NCBI RefSeq assembly: GCF_028502605.1
Contig: NC_079236.1
Coordinates: 1,240,001-1,304,000 of the forward strand
Direction of reading: 5' to 3'
From: Trichoderma breve
Taxonomy: Eukaryota; Ascomycota; Sordariomycetes; Hypocreales; Hypocreaceae
DNA: 64,000 nucleotides
Positions within the stretch are counted from its first letter, which is position 1, and each line of letters opens with the position of its first letter. Below the pieces are notes generated by a model. That model saw only the letters and a list, made by a program, of their open reading frames with translations, searched no databases and was not told the origin of the DNA. Both the position numbers and the translations under genes were made by a program. Below, one piece after another: positions 4,953-64,000 of this stretch.

Positions 4953-5666
4953 AGAGACAATGTTAGCTGAAATATTGAAAGAATGAAAGAACAGAACAGA
5001 CAAATGCTGTTGTGCAGTAATCTCTATCTCAATCTCTTTGAAAGATGGAAGATGGAAGATGAAGGATGCGATGTGGAGATTTGGGATCAAAAAAGAAACG
5101 CACTGGAAGCTCCCCCCCAGTTTGCCGCTAAATAAACAACGGCGCCTGTAGAAGCTTAAATTAGCGCACCGCCCTTGTGCCTGGTGGCGACTGTGGCCAA
5201 TGAATGACGCATCCCGCATCAGAGGCGTCACCAAACTGGCGCTTGCACGGCCAACCAAGAGACGCCGTGATGACGTTTGCATGTGACGGGCGCCTGTTTT
5301 CCAGGAATAAAGGAGGATATCACCATGATGCTATTTAATGGCTTTTGTGGTGGCGTCACCCAGGATATTTTTGCGCAGTTGAGCTTCTGTCTCTTCCAGC
5401 TTCTGCAACATCTGGATGCCCTGTGTTGCTGTTTAGTTGACCCATTTCAGTGCCTTCATCAGCTGCTGCATGCACTGAACTGATCTGAAGCACCGACAGC
5501 CCCGCCGACGAACCACTGCAAACAACCCCGCGATTTGATTGCGTTGCATCGCATCGCATCGCATCGTCTGTACATTAAATCTTCATCCTATCAACGTCTG
5601 CAAACATCTACGCCTTACTTATCCGGTTTTCTTGCATCATACTTCTTCGTCATCATCATCACCATC
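4953..5666. other. Intergenic region
   Basis: Holds the 3' end of the fucosidase gene and the promoter of the spartin-like gene. A GCATC unit is repeated four times at 5546-5565. No TATA box or gene is evident. Confidence 0.45.
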
Positions 5667-7450
5667 ATGGCCTCTGGACACAATGTTCGTAACAGTCCTT
5701 CTCTTCTCTCATCCCATAGAACCCTCAACTAACTCATCACCTCTCCAGGATCCGAAGCTGCTCTACTCGGTCGAGGGCATCAAGGCTTACCACATCGCAA
5801 ATGGCACCGAGCAGTCTCTAACGCCCTCAGGGCCTCAAACCCTATCGCTGCTCATGGTCCCAACCTCGTCTGGCTTTGCTGAAATCGGCAACGGAGAACA
5901 AGACTTCTATCTTCACCTTCATCTCCCCCCCGAGCTCGATCTTCCACTTCCCGCAACCACGCAAATCTACCACCAGCCCCCCAGCAGCTATCTGATTCCG
6001 CGATGGGATCTCGGCCCCGGCAACGGCGCATTCACACGCCTAGAGTTTCCCGTCGTTGGAAGCAGACCTGGCGTGCAGGAAGACGTCGACACTTTTGAGA
6101 CGATTCTTGCGCAGTGCACGGCATTCCTCGAGAGAGCGCCAGCTCCCCCTCCAGAAAAGCCCCGCAGACCTACCGGTACCGAACGCAAACCATCCGATGC
6201 TGCCAGAGCAAAGGCAAGAGAAGCTGGCAGAGATGAACCGCCCGCTTACAACCCCGCCAACTTTGAGCCTGGCGAAGGTTATGCGCAGGGCAGCCATAGC
6301 TCGCACGTTGCAGGGCGCATCGTGCTGGTTGACGAAGAGGATGGCAGCGTCATGGGAGAGCTGAGCGACGGCTTCAACGTCGTCGAGGACGGTGCTATCA
6401 AACCAGGATCCAAAGGTAAGCATATTCTTATGCCATACTTCTCAGTCCGCTGTTGCCAGAAGCTCACATATTTTGTCTACAGAACCCGTCGAGATTATTC
6501 TTCCCGCCGATGGCAGCCACAACATTTCCGTTCAGCCCGCCTACGACTACATCGAAGATACTATGCACCCGGCATACAGAACATCAACTATTGTCTCATC
6601 AGCGTCAAAGGCCTCGCGGCTGCTCATTACCACATCCGACTATGTCGCAAAAGTGATGCAGAACCAAGCCGACAACTTGACCAAGAGCATGAAGCCTGCC
6701 GCAAAGCCCATGACATTCGCCCCCACGACTCACGAACACATACGCCGTATCAACCAATATTCCACCAAGGTCGCCACCTTGTCGGCCCAGACCATTGGTT
6801 CCATCAATCAGTTTGCTCAGAATTTCGGCGCTGGCATGTCCAAGCGCAAGGATGGTCGGGCTCGAGGATACGACAAGGAGGGAAATGTTATCGAGACTTA
6901 CAAGCCGGGCGTGCTCAACAAGAGCTTGATGGCCTTTAACACGGTCGTCGACGGCATGGAACATGCTGGGCGGACTTTGCTTACCGGTACAACGTCGAGC
7001 ATGTCCACGGTTGTTGGCCACCGCTGGGGCCCTGAGGCGGGTGAGCTGTCCAGAAACCTTGGGGCCGGGTTCAAAAACGTCGGACTCGTTTACATCGACG
7101 TTACTGGTGTTTCTCGTCGCGCCATTCTCAAGAGCGTTGCCAAGGGCATGGTTGTCGGCAAGGTCAAGGGAGGCGGCCAAATCATTGTCGGCGGCGACAA
7201 TGGATCTGACGCAGCCCTTGTCTCTGGAGGCAACGGTAACGGTAATGGCAATGGCAATGGCAGCGGCAATGGAAGAGGCAACGGCAACGGCAACGGCCAC
7301 GGCAATGGGAGAGGTAACGGAAATGGCAAAGGCAATGGCAATGGCGATTCAAGCACAATACACAACACATACGGCGGCGAAATCAACATCCCAGGGAGCA
7401 ACGATTGGGACGCAAAAGGGGTTAGAGAGGGGAAGAAGCCGGCCTGGTGA
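5667..7450 (+). CDS. Spartin/senescence-domain protein
   Basis: Exons 5667-5684, 5749-6415 and 6483-7450 give 550 aa. The first exon encodes only six residues (MASGHN), and its donor is the weak GTTCGT; frame and homology pattern require it. Residues about 265-455 form the senescence/spartin-associated domain, with T-S-D-Y-V-A-K-V, G-S-I-N-Q-F-A-Q-N-F-G and R-W-G-P-E-A-G. In animals and plants this domain links to lipid droplets and endosomes; the fungal role is little known. The tail after the domain is an Asn-Gly repeat (listed separately) followed by a conserved-looking end, N-D-W-D-A-K-G-V-R-E-G-K. No membrane segment or signal peptide is seen. Confidence 0.85.
7229..7346 (+). repeat. GGCAAT/GGCAAC repeat coding for Gly-Asn tract
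   Basis: About 20 imperfect 6-nt units encode alternating Gly-Asn, interrupted by Ser, Arg, His and Lys. The codons vary (AAC/AAT, GGC/GGT/GGA), so the tract is old enough to have drifted at synonymous sites while keeping the amino acids. Confidence 0.85.
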
Positions 7451-36593: not shown

Positions 36594-38263
36594 ATGCCAC
36601 CAGAGATGGATTCCGCTGCAATTCCCGACGGCGATGGTGCAAAGGCCGTCGAATCACAGCCTGAGGTGGACGAAAGTGTGATCTCGATACCGACCCTTTC
36701 GGTCACAGGAGCTGGAGCAGAAGCTCAGGAAGAGGAAGCGGACGAGGACGCTCTGGATGACGCCGTTGATCCTGCTCAACCTTCAGCGCCCACGAAGAAG
36801 AAACGAAAGAACAAGAAAACAACAGTCGCCAGGGGTCCACTGGCATTGCCCAAGAATCGCGGCAATGGATTTGAAGGTATGACGTCTCATCTTTGACAGC
36901 TTTTTCAATAGTGACTCGAGGCTAAACGATGGTAGAGTATTTTGCAGACCCTCCCATGACTCCTGATGAAGCCATGGAGGAGAAACAAGAGATATATTCT
37001 CCGTAAGCAAATCACAATGACATGTTGGACAATTCAAGAAGCTAACAGGTAGCCACAGAGACATTTCTTTTGAAAGGTATCATCAACGATTCGAACGTCC
37101 CTTCTCTCTTCTGGTTTCAGTTCAACTAACCTAGTACACCTCCATCTAGACGAATTCAGTCATGCATTCAGCGTTTCCGCTCTCGTCGCCGTGTCCAATA
37201 TCCGAGAACTACCTACTTTGACGACTACCTCTTCCTTGGTGGCGTGGATACGAACCAAGCTGCCTACTCTGGACTTGATCCAAAGGAACTCAAGCAACTC
37301 ACACCTGCACAACGTCGCGAAGCCACGGTTAGGGATGTCGTCTATGAAGGTACCAGTGGTGGTGACCGCTTTTACAATGGCGACGAAACCAAATGGACTG
37401 TCGACTTTGCCAGCGTAGCAGCAGGCTTCCTCTCCAGAGCAATCATCCCCTTGACTGGTCTTCAGACTGGACCAATGGAAGACGCCATAGATGTGATTGA
37501 GAACTTTCTTCGATACGTCCTCCATCACGATGTCTGTCCCGAGTATGAAAAGAATGTCAAAGAGGCACTGAATGTCTGTCTGATGGCTAGAGAAGAATGG
37601 CCCATGCTCAACTCTTTGCAAGCCGCACTTCCGGGTCTCTTCAACTTTGCTGCGACGGAGTTGTTCTCGAAGACTGATCCCGATGCATGGGCCCTTGATT
37701 TGTTTCAGATTCCCGAGGGGTTCGATGCGAAGTCTGTCTTCTATTCGGCCATTACAATGCTGGGCGATACCAAAGTGTTTGAACATCTTGTTGCTAACGC
37801 CGTGGAGCTTGTCAACCAATATGAATGCACTCTAGAGATAACAAAGGTCCATCTCCCAACCAAAGAGCTGATCGAGCGATTCCAGAAGCTTGCCATCACT
37901 ACAGACGGCAACAAAAAGATCCGACTCATGGAACTGGGCAAACTCACTCTCAAACCAGCCGCGATCGAGGATGGATGGGTCGAGCCGGACATACAGCATC
38001 CGCTACAGGGCAAGGAGATTGAGTTGTATTTCGAGCAAAACATCCTTGTCAACCTCAAGCCAGGTATGAAGATGACGTTGGAAATCTGCGAACTTGGAGC
38101 TGACGTTCGTTTTGTCAAACATATTCGCAAGATTGTCCCCTCATTCTACACGTTTCTTGCGCAGGAGTTGATGGTACACTTCAGGGTTCCAGAACAAAAT
38201 GACCGCGCGGCGCCATCAGTGCACAATCCTACGGCGGAAGACAGTCAACCAGTGGAGGAGTAA
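36594..38263 (+). CDS. arb1: Argonaute siRNA chaperone (ARC) complex subunit Arb1
   Basis: In fission yeast Arb1 and Arb2 bind Argonaute, help load siRNA and support heterochromatin (family knowledge). Exons 36594-36876, 36936-37002, 37059-37076 and 37150-38263 give 493 aa. Exon 3 is only 18 nt. It restores the family motif running from F-E-R-R-I-Q into C-I-Q-R-F-R-S-R-R-R across the exon 3/4 junction. The N terminus is acidic, then basic (K-K-K-R-K-N-K-K), as in Arb1 proteins. The folded core runs from about residue 120 to 475, with Y-L-F-L-G-G-V-D, W-T-V-D-F and F-L-R-Y-V-L-H-H. It converges with the Pmp3 gene 413 bp away. The presence of Arb1 implies an RNAi/Argonaute pathway in this organism. 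Confidence 0.88.
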
Positions 38264-55083: not shown

Positions 55084-58000
55084 ATGGGAGAGACCGTTAT
55101 TGTCGTCACGAATGGTGCACAAGACGCCAACGCCTCGTCGGACTCGTCGACCCTCTCCAGCAGCCAGGACGACCAGCCTCCTATAGCGGAACCCCCCGAC
55201 ATATTAGCTATAGAGAAGCCGCATTGTCCTCACACCCTTTCAGCCCGGCGAGTTGCTGAGCTCCTCCAAACCGACGCCGAAGATGGACTAAGTGTCGAGG
55301 AGGCTGCCGCCCGCTTGGCTCGGGACGGCCCCAACACTATCAAGGGAGCAAAGGGCATCTCCATCTGGGAGATCTTTCTCCAACAGGTTGCCAATGCCTT
55401 GACTGCCGTGCTCATCGCCGTAATGGCGCTGTCCTTTGCCATTCACGACTTTGTCGAAGGTGGCGTGGTCCTGGCCGTCATTCTCCTCAATATCATCGTG
55501 GGGTATGTTGCAAAATGAAACTGACGCAGAAAGGAAGAGACCAAGCCTACTGCTATAGCCATTATTTCTTTTCTTTCTCTTTCTTTTTTTTTACTTCTCT
55601 CTTAAAGGGAATCATTTACATGCTTCCCACTACTTTTCATGTCTTGCTCACACGTTATGAAACAAAATTACAGGTTGATCCAGGACTACCGCGCTGAGCA
55701 GACAATCCAGTCGCTCTACGCCTTGTCTACTCCCAAATGCAAAGTCATCCGGAATGGGTTCAACGATACCGTCAAGGCAGAAACCCTAGTCAAGGGTGAC
55801 CTGGTCTGGCTCTCCACTGGAGACGTAGTTCCCGCCGATTTACGTCTTGTTCAAGGCATCAACCTCGCAACGGACGAATCTCACCTTACGGGTGAATCTG
55901 TAGCCATCAGCAAGAAGCCAGATGTCATCTTCAACGACCCCGATCTCCCCATGGGTGATCGCACAAACTTGGTCTACACTGGAAGCTCTGTGACTCGAGG
56001 CCGAGCGACTGGCATTGTAATATCCACCGGCATGAAGACCGAGGTCGGCCAGATTGCCGAACTGCTGCGTCAAAAGAAGAAGCAGAACACTGGCTCTGGC
56101 CCCGTCAGCAGGTTCCTCATCAACTGCTATCAGACTAGCAGGAACATTCTTGGCCTAGAAGGGACGCCTCTGCAAGTCACTCTCAGCAAGTTTGCTCTCC
56201 TGCTATTCGCTTTGGCCATACTACTAGCCGTCATTGTCTTCTCTGTTAGTAGGTGGGACATTGACGACAATGTTCTGCTGTACGGCATTTGCGTTGGCGT
56301 CGCCGTTATTCCGGAGTCCCTCCTTGCCGTACTTACCGTCACTATGGCTGTCGCTACCAAGGCAATGGTTAAGGGTCATGTAATCGTTCGCCAGATGCCG
56401 TCTCTCGAGGCCGTTGGCGGAGTGACCAACATTTGCTCCGACAAGACCGGCACCCTCACCCAGGGACGCATGATTGCCCGCAAAGTGTGGCTTCGAGGCG
56501 GCCTCGTTGGGCTTATCGAAGGCACCTCCAACCCCTATGATCCGAGCAGCGGCACCGTGTCGTGGTCCGGATCACTCGTAGGAACTTGCTTCAACGCCTT
56601 TCTCGACACTCTCGTCCTATGCAACAACTCCACCGTTAGCGACGGCAAGAAGGAGCTTGAGACTGACTCCAGTAGTGTCACAACGGCCTTTGGGTCAGAT
56701 GAATGGAAGGCAGTGGGGGAGCCTACGGAGATAGCTCTCAAAGTCTTTGCTCTGCGCTTTGGGAAGAATAAGACTGCCGGCGATGAACTCGTCGCAGAGC
56801 ACCCCTTTGACTCGTCGTGCAAACTCATGAGTGTTGTCTATGGTAGAGACATCGATGCCAAGTCCCAAGTGTATACCAAAGGTGCCGTTGAGGTAATTGT
56901 GCCGAAGCTCGACGAATCTGAAGAGCTGAAGCAGACGATCCACGCCATGGCGGAGGAGCTCGCTGCTGAAGGCCTCAGAGTGCTCTGCATTGCTAACAGA
57001 ACCCTGGACCGGGAGAAGGAAGACGCCCACGACCGTGCCCAGGTCGAGAGTGGCCTTCACTTCCTGGGACTTGCTGGTCTGTATGATCCTCCTCGTCCGG
57101 AGACGGCCGGTGCAGTGTCGCAATGTCGTCAGGCCGGTGTTGCCGTGCACATGGTGACGGGCGACCACATCAAGACGGCGACAGCGATTGCATACGAAGT
57201 TGGCATCTTGTCGCATGACGTACCCTTGTCCCCGAAAACTGTCATGTCGGCGATCGATTTTGGTAATCTCACAGACGACCAGATCGATGCCATGGATACC
57301 CTTCCGCTTGTCATTGCCAGATGCAGCCCCCTGACCAAGGTCAGGGTCATCAAGGCATTGCATCGCCGAAAGGCGTTTTGCATCATGACTGGTGACGGCG
57401 TCAACGATTCGCCAGCGCTGAAACAGGCCGACGTGGGCATAGCCATGGGCGATAGGGGAAGCGATGTGGCCAAGGAAGCGTCGGACATGGTGCTGACGGA
57501 TGACAACTTTGCATCCATCGTGACAGGCATCAAGGAAGGACGCCGGCTTGCAGACAATATCCAAAAGGTAGGCTTGTTGGCCCTCCCCCAAGCCACAAAT
57601 ACTTGTACAAAGATGATTGGGCTAACGCGTATATGTTTGTAGTTCCTTTTGCATCTCCTCACTTCCAACTTGGCCCAGGTCATCCTTCTATTGATTGGGC
57701 TGGCGTTCAAGGATGAGGACAAGATCGCTGTGTTTCCGTTGTCGCCACTCGAAATCCTATGGGCTAACCTGGTCACCTCGTCACCCCTTGCTCTTGGCTT
57801 GGGCTTGGAAGAGGCGCAGCCAGACATTCTGCAGCGTCCGCCCCGCAACTTGCGGTCGGGAGTCTTCACCTTGGATCTGATTCGGGACCAGTTCGTGTAT
57901 GGCACCTGTATGGGGTCTCTCTGCCTGGCGGCATTTATGCTGGTGGCTTATGCATCTTCTGGACAGGGCTTTCATGACCTGCCTATCGACTGCAATGAGA

Positions 58001-58413
58001 ACGGCCACGGCCATGACGGATGCGGCCTCGTGTTTCGTGCGAGAGCCGCGACGTTTGCTACTCTGAGCTTTTTGCTCCTGATTACTGCTTGGGAGGTGAA
58101 GCACTTTCATCGCAGTCTGTTCAACATGGACGAGAGGTGGAAGGGCCCCTTGTCTGTCTTTAAGACAATCTATCACAACCATTTCTTGTTCTGGTCCGTT
58201 GTTGCGGGATTCATCATTACCTTCCCCGTCATTTACATTCCTTACGTCAACAAGGTTGTGTTTAAGCACCAGGCATTAACGTGGGAGTGGGGTGTCGTGT
58301 TTGGCTGCGTGGCGGTCTACATTGTGCTCATTGAAGCCTGGAAGGCCATCAAGCGCCGCTTTAGCCTCGGCATCGACAAGCATCCCAACCAGGCAGCCAT
58401 CTCGCAGGCGTAA
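55084..58413 (+). CDS. ENA-type P-type ATPase (sodium/potassium export)
   Basis: Pumps Na+ and/or K+ out of the cell at ATP cost, important in salt and alkaline stress. Exons 55084-55502, 55674-57567 and 57643-58413 give 1027 aa. The ATG at 55084 follows a non-ATG frame opening. The cation ATPase N-terminal domain lies at about 45-115. The actuator loop has L-T-G-E-S. Transmembrane segment 4 is G-V-A-V-I-P-E-S-L-L-A-V-L-T-V-T-M-A, the ENA (type IID) version. The phosphorylation site is C-S-D-K-T-G-T-L-T, and the hinge is M-T-G-D-G-V-N-D-S-P-A-L. The last exon holds the final membrane segments (L-L-L-I-G-L-A-F and others). All catalytic motifs are intact. It converges with the GTPase-fusion gene, 495 bp away. 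Confidence 0.93.
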
Positions 58414-58908: not shown

Positions 58909-61900
58909 TTATGCAGTCTTGATGTCGGTTTGGATGACCTGTGTTTTGAGTGTTAGTTTGAGGGAGGAAGATTGATGGGTGAGAGAGGGGAGACGTACGA
59001 ATTTCCAACCGCTGATGCCTTCCCACTTTCCGCGGACGTACATTTCGTAGCTGGGGGATGAGATTAGCTTCTAGTTAATGTGACTGAGTTGATGGAGTTT
59101 TTGCTTACCATTGCGGATCGCTGATGCGGTCGACGAGGGGTTGGATGTTGGGGTTCTGGGCGAGAGCCTCGGTCCAGTTCCACGGGTCGGCATCGGAAGC
59201 TGCCTTGTCCTTGAGCTCGTTGGCGGGACCGTTGGGAATGTCCGTGTAGACGCGCTTCTTGGTCTCGCCCTTGAGGAAGTTGGGGGCTTCGCCGGTTTTG
59301 CTGCCCGTGCGGACGTAGCCTCCTGTGAAGGTGACTTCTGGGACGAGCCTGAGTTGAAGAATGTTAGTATTGACGAGGTTTAATGGAGGTGGCATAGGGG
59401 ATGGTTTACTTCATCTTGGCGGTGTATGTGATGGACATGAGTTGGGTGTAGCCGGAGCAAGTGACGGTTGTCCTGTGAATGAGTTAGTTAGCTTTGATGG
59501 GATTGGGATGGAGGGAGTGAGTGAGTGGGCGTACGCTCGGTTTGCCGGGCAGATGACGGGGCAGTCGAAGTCGATGTTGAGGGTGACTTCGTTGCGCTTG
59601 GTGTCTACGAAGGTGTCTGATCCGTTGAAAGCGGCCTGAGATGATGAGTTAGTTTGCGTAAGAGCATATTGCTTGTTGGTTCATGGTGAAGACATACCTT
59701 GATGTGGTCGGTGACGACTTGCTCAATACCAGTGGCGGAGGCGTACCTAATGGGTGAGATGATTAGCTTTGTTTGATGAGTGAGAGAAATGACAACTTAC
59801 TCGTTTTGAGCGGTAAACATGGCGGCGTTGGAGTGAGTGATTGCCTCCGTCTTTTCTTCCTTGATGGCGATGTTGACCTGAGTGCTACACAAGAGGGTTA
59901 GAGGCAAAAAGTTGGGATGTAAGTTGTGGTATACTTACTTCTCGTCCTGAGCTGGCACTGTGAGGGTTTTGACCTGTATGGGGGTTTTGTTTCAGCATCA
60001 AAATAGATCGACAATGGCGGGCTAAAAGGGGGAGTACGGACGGTGAAAGGAGACAGCTCTTGGATGATGGGCTCGTCGAATACGAAATCAGAGAACTCGG
60101 CCGTCCAGTTGTCGAAGCGGAGACTTGTGCACTGCTTGTTCTGAACGCCAAATCAGTTAGCCTACCCCCCTCAAATCAAAAGTATGAATTGTTTTTTCTC
60201 TTTTTCTTTTCTTCTCTTGTCCTTTTTGTTTCTTGATTATGATGAAGATATGTACATACGCCGTATCCCTTTGGCTTGCTCAAGTTCTTGAGCAGATATG
60301 ACCTTGAGTTGCCTTCGGGGTGGAGCTCATGCTGGAATTCTGACCCGCTGGATATCCAGGACATGCCGAGGAGACTAGCGATTATATGTGAGTAGGAATC
60401 TTATTAACCAAATAATGGCTGAGTACAAAGATTTTTTGCAGAATCTGAGCAACCAAATTATGGCGTAATAAGGAGATTTTTTTGCATACTTGGCTAGGTC
60501 AGCGAAGGGGCGGCTTATCCCGTGTATGACTTTGGATTCCAGCTCCGAGGTCGTTGATTCATAGCTGATGCCCTGCGGTGGGGAGTTAGTCATGATGAAA
60601 AGAAGGAGAAATAAAAAGGGCGAGGCTTAGGAAACAGGGCGGCGGTGGTTTCGAACCTTTAACTTGAAGACAGCTTGAGCGCGGCTATGAAAGACTGTTA
60701 GTACATGGAATATCATGGATTGTCAGGGTAAACTTGAAGGAAAACTCACCGAATGTTCTCGTACAGCGTGTCGGCTTTGCGTTCAAACGTCTCCCAAGTC
60801 TTTGTTTTCGTGTCAGCGATTCTCCTCCCCAAATATCGTGGAAACTTACCTCGGCCTGTTTCGTCATCTCACCACAAGCCTCTCCAAAGTAGGTCATCTT
60901 GGCCTTCCGGACAGCCTCCTCCAGCTTCTCGGGCGTATCCAGCGTAAAGTCGACGACGCCGGACAGGACCTCGTTGACGCATCGGTTGAGGGCCTGGCGG
61001 TTCCACTTGTTAACGAGGGAGTCCAGGAGCAGCAGCTTGGCGATGTGGTAGTCGGAGATGCCGCTGGCCAGCCTGTTGCGGGCCTCGGTGACGCGGAGCT
61101 TGGCCTCTTCTTGCGAGAGGCTGAGGTGGGCGACGTTGCTCTCGAAGGCGGCCTTGGCTGTGCTTTCGCAGGTGGCGAGGTGGGATGTGATCTTCTCCTT
61201 GGACAGGAACCTGGTGACTTGGAGCGTGTCGCTCTGGTTCTTGAAGTCGTCGATTTGGGCCTTGACGACTCGGTCTAGCTCCTTGTCAATGTATGACAGG
61301 AACTCCTTCAGAACTGTTTGGAAGTGTTAACAGCTGATGGTAAATGAGGTAGGAGACATAGGATATTCTTACCAGCCGAGTACTTGTCGCCAAATGTGCT
61401 CTTCTTGGCAGACAGTTGGTTGTCAAACTCGTTCAGGTAGTGGTCATACAGACGGTTGCTCATGGACTTCTCCTTCAAAAAGGTTATGAGGTTTTCACGG
61501 GTTGCTGTGGTGTCAGTGAGGGCCTTGAACTCTCCAACATCGTCCTTGGGCAGCAGAGACTCGTCCAGCTGCCTCTGATAAGCTGCGAGATGTTTTTCTA
61601 AAGAAAGAAGAAATGTTAGTCAGGATATCGACAAAGAGCGATTCGTAGTCTCATCTATTTAAACTTACCGAGTTCCTGGGCAACGTCCTTGGCCATCTCC
61701 TGCTCTCGGACAGTAACCTTTGCCTTGACAAGGTTCTTGGCCTTGTCAACCTTTTCCGCGTAATTCGTCTTAATCGTTTCTGCATTCTCCCACAGATACT
61801 CAGTATCAATGGTGTTGTTGTAGTGCGTTAGATGAGAGCTCTGCTCCTCATCCGCGCTCGTCTCCCAGATGGACTCATCGCCAATCAGAGTCTCCTGGTA

Positions 61901-64000
61901 AAGTTTCTCAAAGGCGGCAGCAATTGCTTCGGAGCTTGTCGTGTCCTGCTCAACAAGCCATGAAGCCCAAGCGGTATTGAGGTTCTGCTTGGCAATCGCC
62001 GCAGCTGTGAAGAATGCGCGGTCGTATGTGACTGCGTAGTTTCCCCTCAGAGCCTGCTCGTCGTAGGATGAGATCTTCTTCTTGTAGGCTTCCAGCAGGT
62101 CGCCGTGGAGCTGATCCAACATCTTCTCTGCAGTGTTGGATGAAATGGATTTGAAGTCGGAGACTGCATCATTCACGGTATCTTGTATTGAGGCAATCAA
62201 ATCAGCCAGCTCCTTCTCGGCGAATGCCTCAATCTTCTGGAGGTTTGCGGCCAAGACTTCATTTCGCTGGCCATCCGACTCCTTGATAAGACTCTCACAT
62301 GTATCCCTAGAATTGTTAACGAATACCCAAGAATGGTGCAGTAGGGTTTGCTTCTTACTTGATGGTCTGTTGTGAGAGATATTTGAGCGAATTACGCACA
62401 TCGGCCATGCATTTGTGCATAATACGATCGAGTTTCTAAACCCAACTCATTTAGCACAAAAGTGACGTACAAAGAGAAAAGAAAGATGAGCATACCTTGT
62501 TGCAATCCTTAGTGCTGATGAGTGCTGGGTCCTGGATCAGCTTATTGCATGCTTCCCTAAAGTCGTGGTGGAGTTTGATGTGGGATCTGTTAATGGCCTC
62601 GTTTTCGGCCGCCCGCCAAATGTCGGGCACGTGAAGCTGGCCGTTTTGCTCAAGCCGGTTGATGGACTTGACAATGCTTGACACAAAATCTGCGGTCGAA
62701 GCACCAGACAAGGGAGCTCCGGCGACGAGTCGAGGAGTTCGGAGCATCTGGGACAGCTGGGCCCGCAGGTTCTTGAAGTCTTTGACGTAGTTGTCGTTGA
62801 AATCATCGAGAACAAGGAACTCCTTGGTCTTGTCGTTGATCTGGCTCTGCACTCCCTCCTTGAGAGAGTTACCGCGAAGCAAGTGAACCTAAATTTGTGT
62901 AAGCTCTTGTCGCTTCTCCCTTCTTACGTCTCAAATGTTAGGTCATGAGATGGCTTACTGTAACACCTTCGAATTCGGAGGCCAGCTTCTCTCGAATCTT
63001 GTTTCTCCTCTTTACCGCCTCCGTCCTGCCAATTTCTTTTTTGAGGATGTTCTTTCTGACATCATCCACTGGTTGGGTGATTAGTATTATTAAACAATGT
63101 GAAATGGTGATTCATTTCGTATCATGTAAAAACTTACCCGAGCCTCCAAGATCATACCTTTTGACGACTGTTAGACCTTCCAAATCTCATGCATGTCGAA
63201 TGGAATCAAATTGGAAACTCACTTGTTGATAATAATGACCAACTGACCAAACTTTGGTCCACTGGTCTTCTTGTCACCACCGAAATTTAGCTTGTTAGCG
63301 GCCAGCGTCATCATCGCCAAGCTCGTCAGGATGGTGTCCTTGGCAACATCTGTAGTGTTGAAAACGATGACACGGGAGCATAGAATGGCGGGAGTGAAGA
63401 GCATGATGCTGCAATTACTTTAGCATCTGCAAGCATGGTAAAAAGGGTGGATGCTACTAACTCGTATAAGTCGCCCTGGTCTCCATGGCCTTCTGTGTCG
63501 AGGAAGGCAACCTTTTGAGGATTTGCCAATGCCACCTCTACGCCGTCATCAAGCCTGGAGAATTCCTTGGCACCCATAATCTTGTTTCCCAGATTCGTAC
63601 CTGTGCGAGAGATTGAGTTAGTAATCGTCAGCAATATGCACAGTGATTCTTCTTACCTCTTGTCCACGATTCGGCTCCGGGGCTGGTGGAAAACAGCGGC
63701 TCCTCCGTGCATCCCGCAAGAAGGTTCATGAGGGTTGATTTGCCACTACGCGTCGGGCCCATGATGCTGATGAGGTTGAGGGCATCGTTAATCTGTCGCA
63801 GGTGATGATTGACGTCGTCGTTGCACTGAAGCACGTAGTTGATAGCCTCGTCAGGGTCGACGTCGGTAGCATCATCGAGAGCAATCTTTTCGCTTGCCGT
63901 CTTGACGCTGAGGGCTTTGACACTGGTGGCCTTTACACTGGTGGCCTTTACGCTGGGGACATGAACACTGGTGGCATTCTCACTGACAACGATCTCGCCA
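58909..64000 (-). CDS. Partial large GTPase fused to C-terminal aerolysin-like beta module
   Basis: The 5' end lies beyond 64000. Twenty-three exons fit in one frame (about 1208 codons): 64000-63657, 63600-63462, 63408-63223, 63157-63138, 63068-62959, 62888-62496, 62435-62359, 62306-61669, 61597-61373, 61313-60850, 60799-60750, 60684-60657, 60572-60490, 60374-60260, 60140-60042, 59973-59939, 59884-59801, 59746-59698, 59635-59535, 59472-59410, 59348-59109, 59050-58999, 58938-58909. Seen: P-loop G-P-T-R-S-G-K-S-T, then S-W-T-R-G-T (switch I-like), D-T-E-G-H-G-D, and N-K-Y-D split by an intron. The order and D-T-E-G resemble GBP/atlastin GTPases. A long helical stalk follows. The last 316 residues are beta-rich with alternating polar residues and a V-T-C-S-G-Y...S-I-T-Y-T-A-K pattern, like the aerolysin/natterin pore-forming group (inference). 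No separate promoter fits between the parts. Confidence 0.75.
60375..60489 (-). repeat. Intron with imperfect 45-nt tandem duplication, open in frame
   Basis: The plus-strand stretch starting ACCAAATAATGGC at 60407 recurs as ACCAAATTATGGC at 60452, each ending TTTTTTGCA. On the coding strand the intron stays open until its own TAG acceptor and would encode two similar hydrophobic segments (S-P-Y-Y-A-I-I-W-L-L-R-F and S-L-Y-S-A-I-I-W-L-I-R-F). Confidence 0.7.

Follow-up and report, generated by a model that had tools for sequence, protein, structure and literature searches.

Can a single fungal protein hold both a GBP-type GTPase and the pore former that it might control? The question is raised by a gene at one end of a 64,000-nucleotide stretch of the Trichoderma breve genome (RefSeq assembly GCF_028502605.1, contig NC_079236.1, positions 1,240,001 to 1,304,000 of the forward strand), here called the window. 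In animals, GBPs act upstream of separate pore formers. An earlier, sequence-only reading of the window had proposed that in this gene the GTPase and a pore-forming module are joined. Our sequence comparisons and predicted models indicate that the product is a dynamin-superfamily large GTPase, of the GBP/atlastin branch, with a C-terminal aerolysin-type module. That GTPase, stalk and module make up one polypeptide is, on the sequence evidence set out below, almost certain.

The full gene, on the minus strand (64509–58909), comprises 25 exons encoding 1326 amino acids (aa), with a single stop at the end. Exons 3–25 (n = 23) lie at least partly inside the window, and the gene start lies 509 bases past the window edge. 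A splice search trained on the codon use of the window's long open reading frames (ORFs) yielded a chain of 24 exons, 1291 aa in all, beginning at an internal ATG that we picked. Exons 1 and 2 were then set by alignment to P0001, an annotated Trichoderma semiorbis protein (P0001–P0011 are our labels for the 11 homologues with the full layout), which led to the model of 25 exons and 1326 aa. P0001, annotated in another project, is also 1326 aa long, and the window protein differs from it by 9 substitutions, so that the genome studied here is probably closely related to T. semiorbis. The equal N-terminus is partly by construction, because exons 1 and 2 were set by P0001; the rest of the match is independent. 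Exons 3–25 keep one frame, as had been proposed for the 23 exons recognized in the window. When the genome of T. breve was searched (38.5 Mb, nine contigs), 18 of 18 matches to P0001 (E ≤ 0.01) fell within this one gene, which is therefore single copy at that sensitivity.

A protein search with residues 140–1291 (5.8 billion proteins, 7999 candidates scored, E ≤ 0.001) revealed 11 homologues with full coverage and the same layout, 45–100% identical, which represent 92 member sequences. Seven are from Trichoderma and the others are from Rasamsonia byssochlamydoides, Annulohypoxylon, Jackrogersella and Hypoxylon; a profile search of proteins added no homologue beyond these 11. The domain order is thus shared across three lineages (Trichoderma, Rasamsonia and Xylariales). 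Mean identity between six of the seven Trichoderma proteins and the four others was 59% for the G domain, 54% for the module, 40% for the stalk and 21% for the N-terminal 170 residues, the least conserved region measured in that comparison. Separate trees of the G domain, stalk and module each recovered the Trichoderma and Xylariales clades with no conflict on a well-supported branch, and differed only in the midpoint-drawn position of the long Rasamsonia branch. Because no supported conflict was seen, the three parts have travelled together. P0007, whose annotated model is missing several stretches, was left out of the region identities. The annotated models of P0005 and P0007 are without part of the NKYD region, and P0007 is also without LLGMSWISS and TTVTCSGYTQLMSITYTAKMK. 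These gaps are probably missed exons, which would keep automatic annotation from recognizing the domains.

One alternative is that the gene model wrongly joins two neighbouring genes at the bridge from stalk to module. The bridge exons are short (28–83 bases), one splice donor is unusual (GTTCGA), and the model was built from sequence. Against this, the bridge is unbroken in all 11 homologues, P0011 carrying a 20-residue insertion, and it lies inside blocks that are 38–50% identical to the Rasamsonia and three Xylariales proteins (aa 971–1050), with no drop in identity. The claim of one frame from the GTPase into the module therefore stood up. The layout is, moreover, the same in 11 of 11 homologues, and a profile search for stand-alone modules, which could reach only proteins of ~180–570 aa, gave one match among 3307 candidates: P0012, a 221-aa piece from Hypoxylon sp. 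CO27-5 with part of the module, which suggests a truncated copy or a wrong gene model. As the bridge is conserved and the trees agree, the fusion has been kept and a misjoined model is exceedingly improbable.

The front of the protein carries the complete GTPase signature that had been claimed for it: GPTRSGKST, SWTRGT, DTEGHGD and NKYD were all found. The Pfam GBP family (PF02263) matched the window protein (E 4.4e-11, 42.9 bits versus a cut-off of 21.1) and, in full-length scans, all 11 homologues (E 4.6e-11 in P0001), and a profile search of the front part returned GBP5 (E 2.9e-11), GBP2 and GBP1. An NKxD-type G4 was found in eight of 11 homologues; P0008 has NKYT, and the annotated models of P0005 and P0007 lack part of G4. 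RD-type G4 (TLRD) was found in none of the 11. Because its G4 is NKxD without RD, we file the protein as a GBP/atlastin-class GTPase and not as a GBP. Pfam gave no match in the window protein at E ≤ 1 to the GBP C-terminal helical domain (GBP_C); fold matches to GBP1 reach the helices with a large root-mean-square deviation. The sole other match to the GBP model in the T. breve genome at E ≤ 0.001 lies at L001 1417–3262, in a GTPase that, from its sequence, we take to be Sey1-like.

Two further sets of G-domain matches were set aside. At least 27 prokaryotic loci were retrieved, and all those listed match only query residues 134–267, in the G domain, which was taken as generic P-loop similarity. 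Scans with NCBIfam and PADLOC each covered three of the 11 homologues (P0001, P0008 and P0009). In the latter, defence models gave weak G-domain matches to mads_8 (E 0.0017 in P0001, 0.0042 in P0008, none in P0009).

The back of the protein resembles aerolysin. The Aerolysin family (PF01117) matched the C-terminal 288 residues alone (E 7.7e-6, 25.8 bits versus a cut-off of 24.3), and matched the four non-Trichoderma homologues at E 7.6e-19 to 1.1e-22 (68.6–81.2 bits). In a profile search of the module against solved structures, all six matches at E ≤ 1 were aerolysin chains (best E 1.7e-4). The module alignment took six of the 11 homologues, and a further alignment took 10, P0007 being the one left out. 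A predicted model (mean predicted local distance difference test score, pLDDT, 63) has a GBP/atlastin fold at its front and an aerolysin fold at its back: among 50 fold matches listed, obtained by VIA-align 2 re-ranking Foldseek's candidates, 37 were to GBP, atlastin, RNF112 or Sey1 (front) and 13 to aerolysin (back). Between G domain and module the model shows the helical stalk that had been proposed, at less than the ~750 residues claimed; the wholly helical part is ~530 residues (model residues 310–839).

The module itself has the long twisted-strand fold of aerolysin domains 2–4 in the predicted model, and aligns with aerolysin residues 115–328 by profile and ~95–421 by fold. The aerolysin fold suggested for the last 316 residues was thus upheld, while the natterin part of the same suggestion was not, the module being closer to aerolysin than to Dln1/natterin-type proteins by both profile and fold. 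Its last 36 residues are its best-conserved block (71–78%). Lectin and DM9 domains gave no Pfam match in the window protein (E ≤ 1) and none among the families of the 11 homologues (E ≤ 0.1). A six-frame search of the T. breve genome with PF01117 gave no match, which is not proof of absence, as the short exons of this gene could explain it. In the NCBIfam scans the module of P0009 (E 3.8e-8) and that of P0008 (E 8e-5), but not that of P0001, matched the BSAP5b pore-forming toxin, a candidate rejected at 33 and 22 bits versus a cut-off of 380. Because the match spans only aerolysin residues ~95–421, the module has no counterpart of aerolysin's receptor-binding lobe (N-terminal) and propeptide (C-terminal). 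The GTPase and stalk occupy the place where these control elements would be.

What might such a protein do? From the sequence and models, we put the chance of a GTP (guanosine triphosphate)-controlled, membrane-attacking function at about even. A more specific proposal, that cytosolic GTP-driven assembly itself builds a single-chain, GTP-gated β-barrel pore, falls somewhat short of even and is tentative. In the mechanism proposed for such a membrane attack, the control that receptor lobe and propeptide exert in aerolysin would pass to the GTPase and stalk, and in the resting state the stalk would hold the aerolysin module apart or shielded. A trigger signal would make G domains pair and the protein self-assemble, driven by GTP, so that several modules would be gathered. 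Once gathered, the modules might attach to a membrane at its cytosolic face and, in the proteins of Xylariales and Rasamsonia at least, their hairpins might thread into a β-barrel pore. The outcome would likely be the death of a hyphal compartment or the killing of an intruder, as with fungal receptors bearing the pore-forming HeLo domain, which is helical. We infer a possible role in immunity, incompatibility or cell death.

Several observations weigh against a GTP-gated pore, and the first of them concern the immune setting and the strength of the two matches. No HET or NACHT domain was found in the 10 ORFs scanned of the 14 in the window of at least 300 aa (four of the 10 had no match of any kind), shorter exons falling outside the scan. 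The gene is single copy and conserved across Trichoderma, unlike many allorecognition genes. With the full-length window protein as query, PF01117 was absent from the Pfam matches at E ≤ 1, and solved structures searched by single sequence yielded GBP5 (E 0.0088) but, up to E 1, no aerolysin. The G4 differs from that of GBPs: GBP5 reads WTLRDFCLG where the fungal protein reads IINKYDLG, with N-K opposite R-D in the profile. The two predicted models, with mean pLDDT of 57 and 63, are modest and silent on assembly.

The remaining points concern the segment that aligns with the part of aerolysin that we take to form the pore hairpin. Both predicted models make this segment helical, at low confidence, and for aa 1155–1171 the helical moment exceeds the beta moment in seven of seven Trichoderma proteins. 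Identity within Trichoderma is 66% at aa 1150–1182 versus 86% for the module (six of the seven proteins used), and aa 1131–1210 are the module's least conserved blocks between T. semiorbis and the four non-Trichoderma homologues. Together with the absence of PF01117 at E ≤ 0.1 from all seven full-length Trichoderma proteins, when four of four other homologues matched, and with a predicted G domain and stalk that match atlastin and GBP about equally, these points favour another explanation: that the module is no longer pore-forming, at least in Trichoderma, and serves as a membrane-binding or ring platform of a GTPase that, in the manner of atlastin or Sey1, tethers or remodels membranes. We regard this as a clear minority possibility, though a substantial one. 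Against it, conservation is good elsewhere in the module, and for aa 1155–1171 the beta moment is larger than the helical in three of the four other homologues. The moment test is also weak, as the segments were hand-picked, the best shuffle p was 0.048 and no Trichoderma value was significant. In a second segment, aa 1139–1152, the beta moment was larger in five of seven Trichoderma proteins and four of four others (none at p < 0.05). As that segment shows no such split and the best p is 0.048, the helical/beta division is a lead only. Variable hairpins are common among working aerolysins, so the variable hairpin of Trichoderma is not decisive. Overall, the poorly conserved and helical-looking hairpin segment, weak evidence as it is, puts pore activity in Trichoderma in doubt; this genus may have changed or lost the pore while other lineages kept it.

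Stand-alone aerolysin-like proteins of other fungi, for which such a role has been proposed, raise the possibility of a secreted, offensive toxin directed at competitors, nematodes or plants, with the GTPase as a passenger. The aerolysin-like proteins of Raffaelea are secreted or bear signal peptides and are induced in infection (PMC7441637), and a secreted aerolysin-like gene of Podospora is up 18-fold in incompatibility, a non-self contact (PMC3689799). In five homologues, moreover, the N-terminus is clearly more hydrophobic than that of the window protein, with best 9-residue means of 2.66 in P0009, 2.46 in P0005, 1.60 in P0010, 1.58 in P0011 and 1.36 in P0008. The window protein itself, however, has no hydrophobic stretch at its N-terminus (best 9-residue mean 0.34 within residues 1–48), the N-terminal region is the one that varies most between Trichoderma and the others, and a GTPase whose G1 and G3 boxes are conserved needs cytosolic GTP. 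Its hydrophobicity means suggest that the window protein is probably cytosolic, and we consider a secreted toxin improbable.

Comparison with known systems places the fused GTPase–aerolysin protein between several of them. The vertebrate guanylate-binding proteins GBP1, GBP2 and GBP5 differ from it in having the TLRD/RD G4 that it lacks, and its tail is an aerolysin module that ends in TDIKTA, with no CaaX. Compared with atlastin, Sey1 and RNF112, its most hydrophobic 19-residue stretch (1.72, at aa 278) lies inside the G-domain core, and its tail is again the aerolysin module. The module is like Aeromonas aerolysin (PF01117) over the residues aligned above, whereas the fungal protein lacks the N-terminal lobe, propeptide and hydrophobic N-terminus, with GTPase and stalk as the control part. 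Natterin/Dln1-type proteins and fungal lectin-aerolysins (LSL, Raffaelea, Podospora) carry lectin domains where this protein has GTPase and stalk. Aerolysin-domain partners given by Szczesny 2011 are lectin, crystallin, DM9 and ubiquitin-fold domains (PMC3110756), and the K62 killer toxin represents another aerolysin-like family, mostly in Ascomycota (PMC12691639). Fungal NLR/HeLo and P-loop-HeLo systems similarly pair a nucleoside triphosphatase (NTPase) with a pore-forming effector, within one chain or along one pathway (PMC3689799, PMC9815663), and a single-chain HeLo pore former with a P-loop or Rho domain has already been recorded in fungi (PMC3689799, its Table 5). Here, the NTPase class and the pore former are both different from those of HeLo cell-death proteins. 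A term look-up in papers on fungal cell death, immunity and NLR effectors (PMC12881547, PMC10197012, PMC9815663) found no mention of aerolysin or guanylate. As the sequence-only reading had supposed, no described family with this layout was found among the open-access papers listed, judged by titles and abstracts. Databases do already record such proteins, under names such as 'Aerolysin toxin-domain-containing protein' or 'Guanylate-binding protein N-t...'.

The gene's features are collected in Table 1. Its convergent neighbour (55606–58413, plus strand) encodes a P-type cation ATPase-like protein with the motif CSDKTGTLT in its ORF and a likely intron near 57640. Farther away on the plus strand, 37130–38263 encodes Arb1, a subunit of the Argonaute small interfering RNA (siRNA) chaperone complex (PF09692, E 1.8e-106), and 5539–7450 holds two long overlapping ORFs of 466 and 361 aa, the 466-aa ORF having no Pfam match at E 1e-5.

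Table 1. Features of the GTPase–aerolysin gene, in window numbering continued past the window edge.
Feature	Position	Strand	Basis or remark
Window part of gene, exons 3–25 of 25	58909..64000	-	splice search and exon-by-exon match of P0001 in own genome
Exon 1	64509-64452	-	beyond window edge; set by P0001 comparison
Exon 2	64380-64296	-	beyond window edge; set by P0001 comparison
Exon 3 start	64213	-	beyond window edge
GBP/dynamin-like G domain (predicted), aa 176-425, exons 3-8	62769..63831	-	PF02263; GBP5/GBP2/GBP1 profile; predicted fold
G1/P-loop GPTRSGKST, aa 200-208	63733..63759	-	GPTRxGKST in 11 of 11 homologues
G3 DTEGHGDQ, aa 268-275	63476..63499	-	DTEGxGD in 11 of 11 homologues
G4 NKYD, aa 341-344	63151..63227	-	interrupted by 65-base intron between exons 5 and 6
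Stalk, aa 441-1010; helical ~aa 474-1003	60657..62723	-	secondary structure of predicted model; ~40% identity Trichoderma versus others, aa 441-1000
Stalk-to-module bridge, aa 985-1038	60799-60490	-	where the sequence-only reading had feared a split transcript
Aerolysin module (predicted), aa 1011-1326, exons 15-25	58912..60572	-	aligns with aerolysin residues ~95-421
Segment aligned with aerolysin pore-hairpin part, aa 1136-1180, exons 19-21	59591..59841	-	module profile alignment; moments; models
Stop codon	58909-58911	-	top score in splice search, close alternatives exist

In immunity it is usually a protease, a ligand or amyloid templating that releases a pore-forming effector. A GTPase fused with the aerolysin core would be another type of switch, and would offer a simple one-gene test of whether dynamin-like assembly can drive β-barrel insertion. 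The GTPase–aerolysin combination is new as far as the literature was searched, conserved and testable, and directly so because Trichoderma is genetically tractable. If the proposed mechanism is true, the protein would be an ascomycete, one-protein counterpart of the animal GBP-to-gasdermin pathway. It would place GBP-type GTPases beside a pore in fungi, and would hint that the pairing of such GTPases with membrane killing may be older than, or separate from, the animal pathway.

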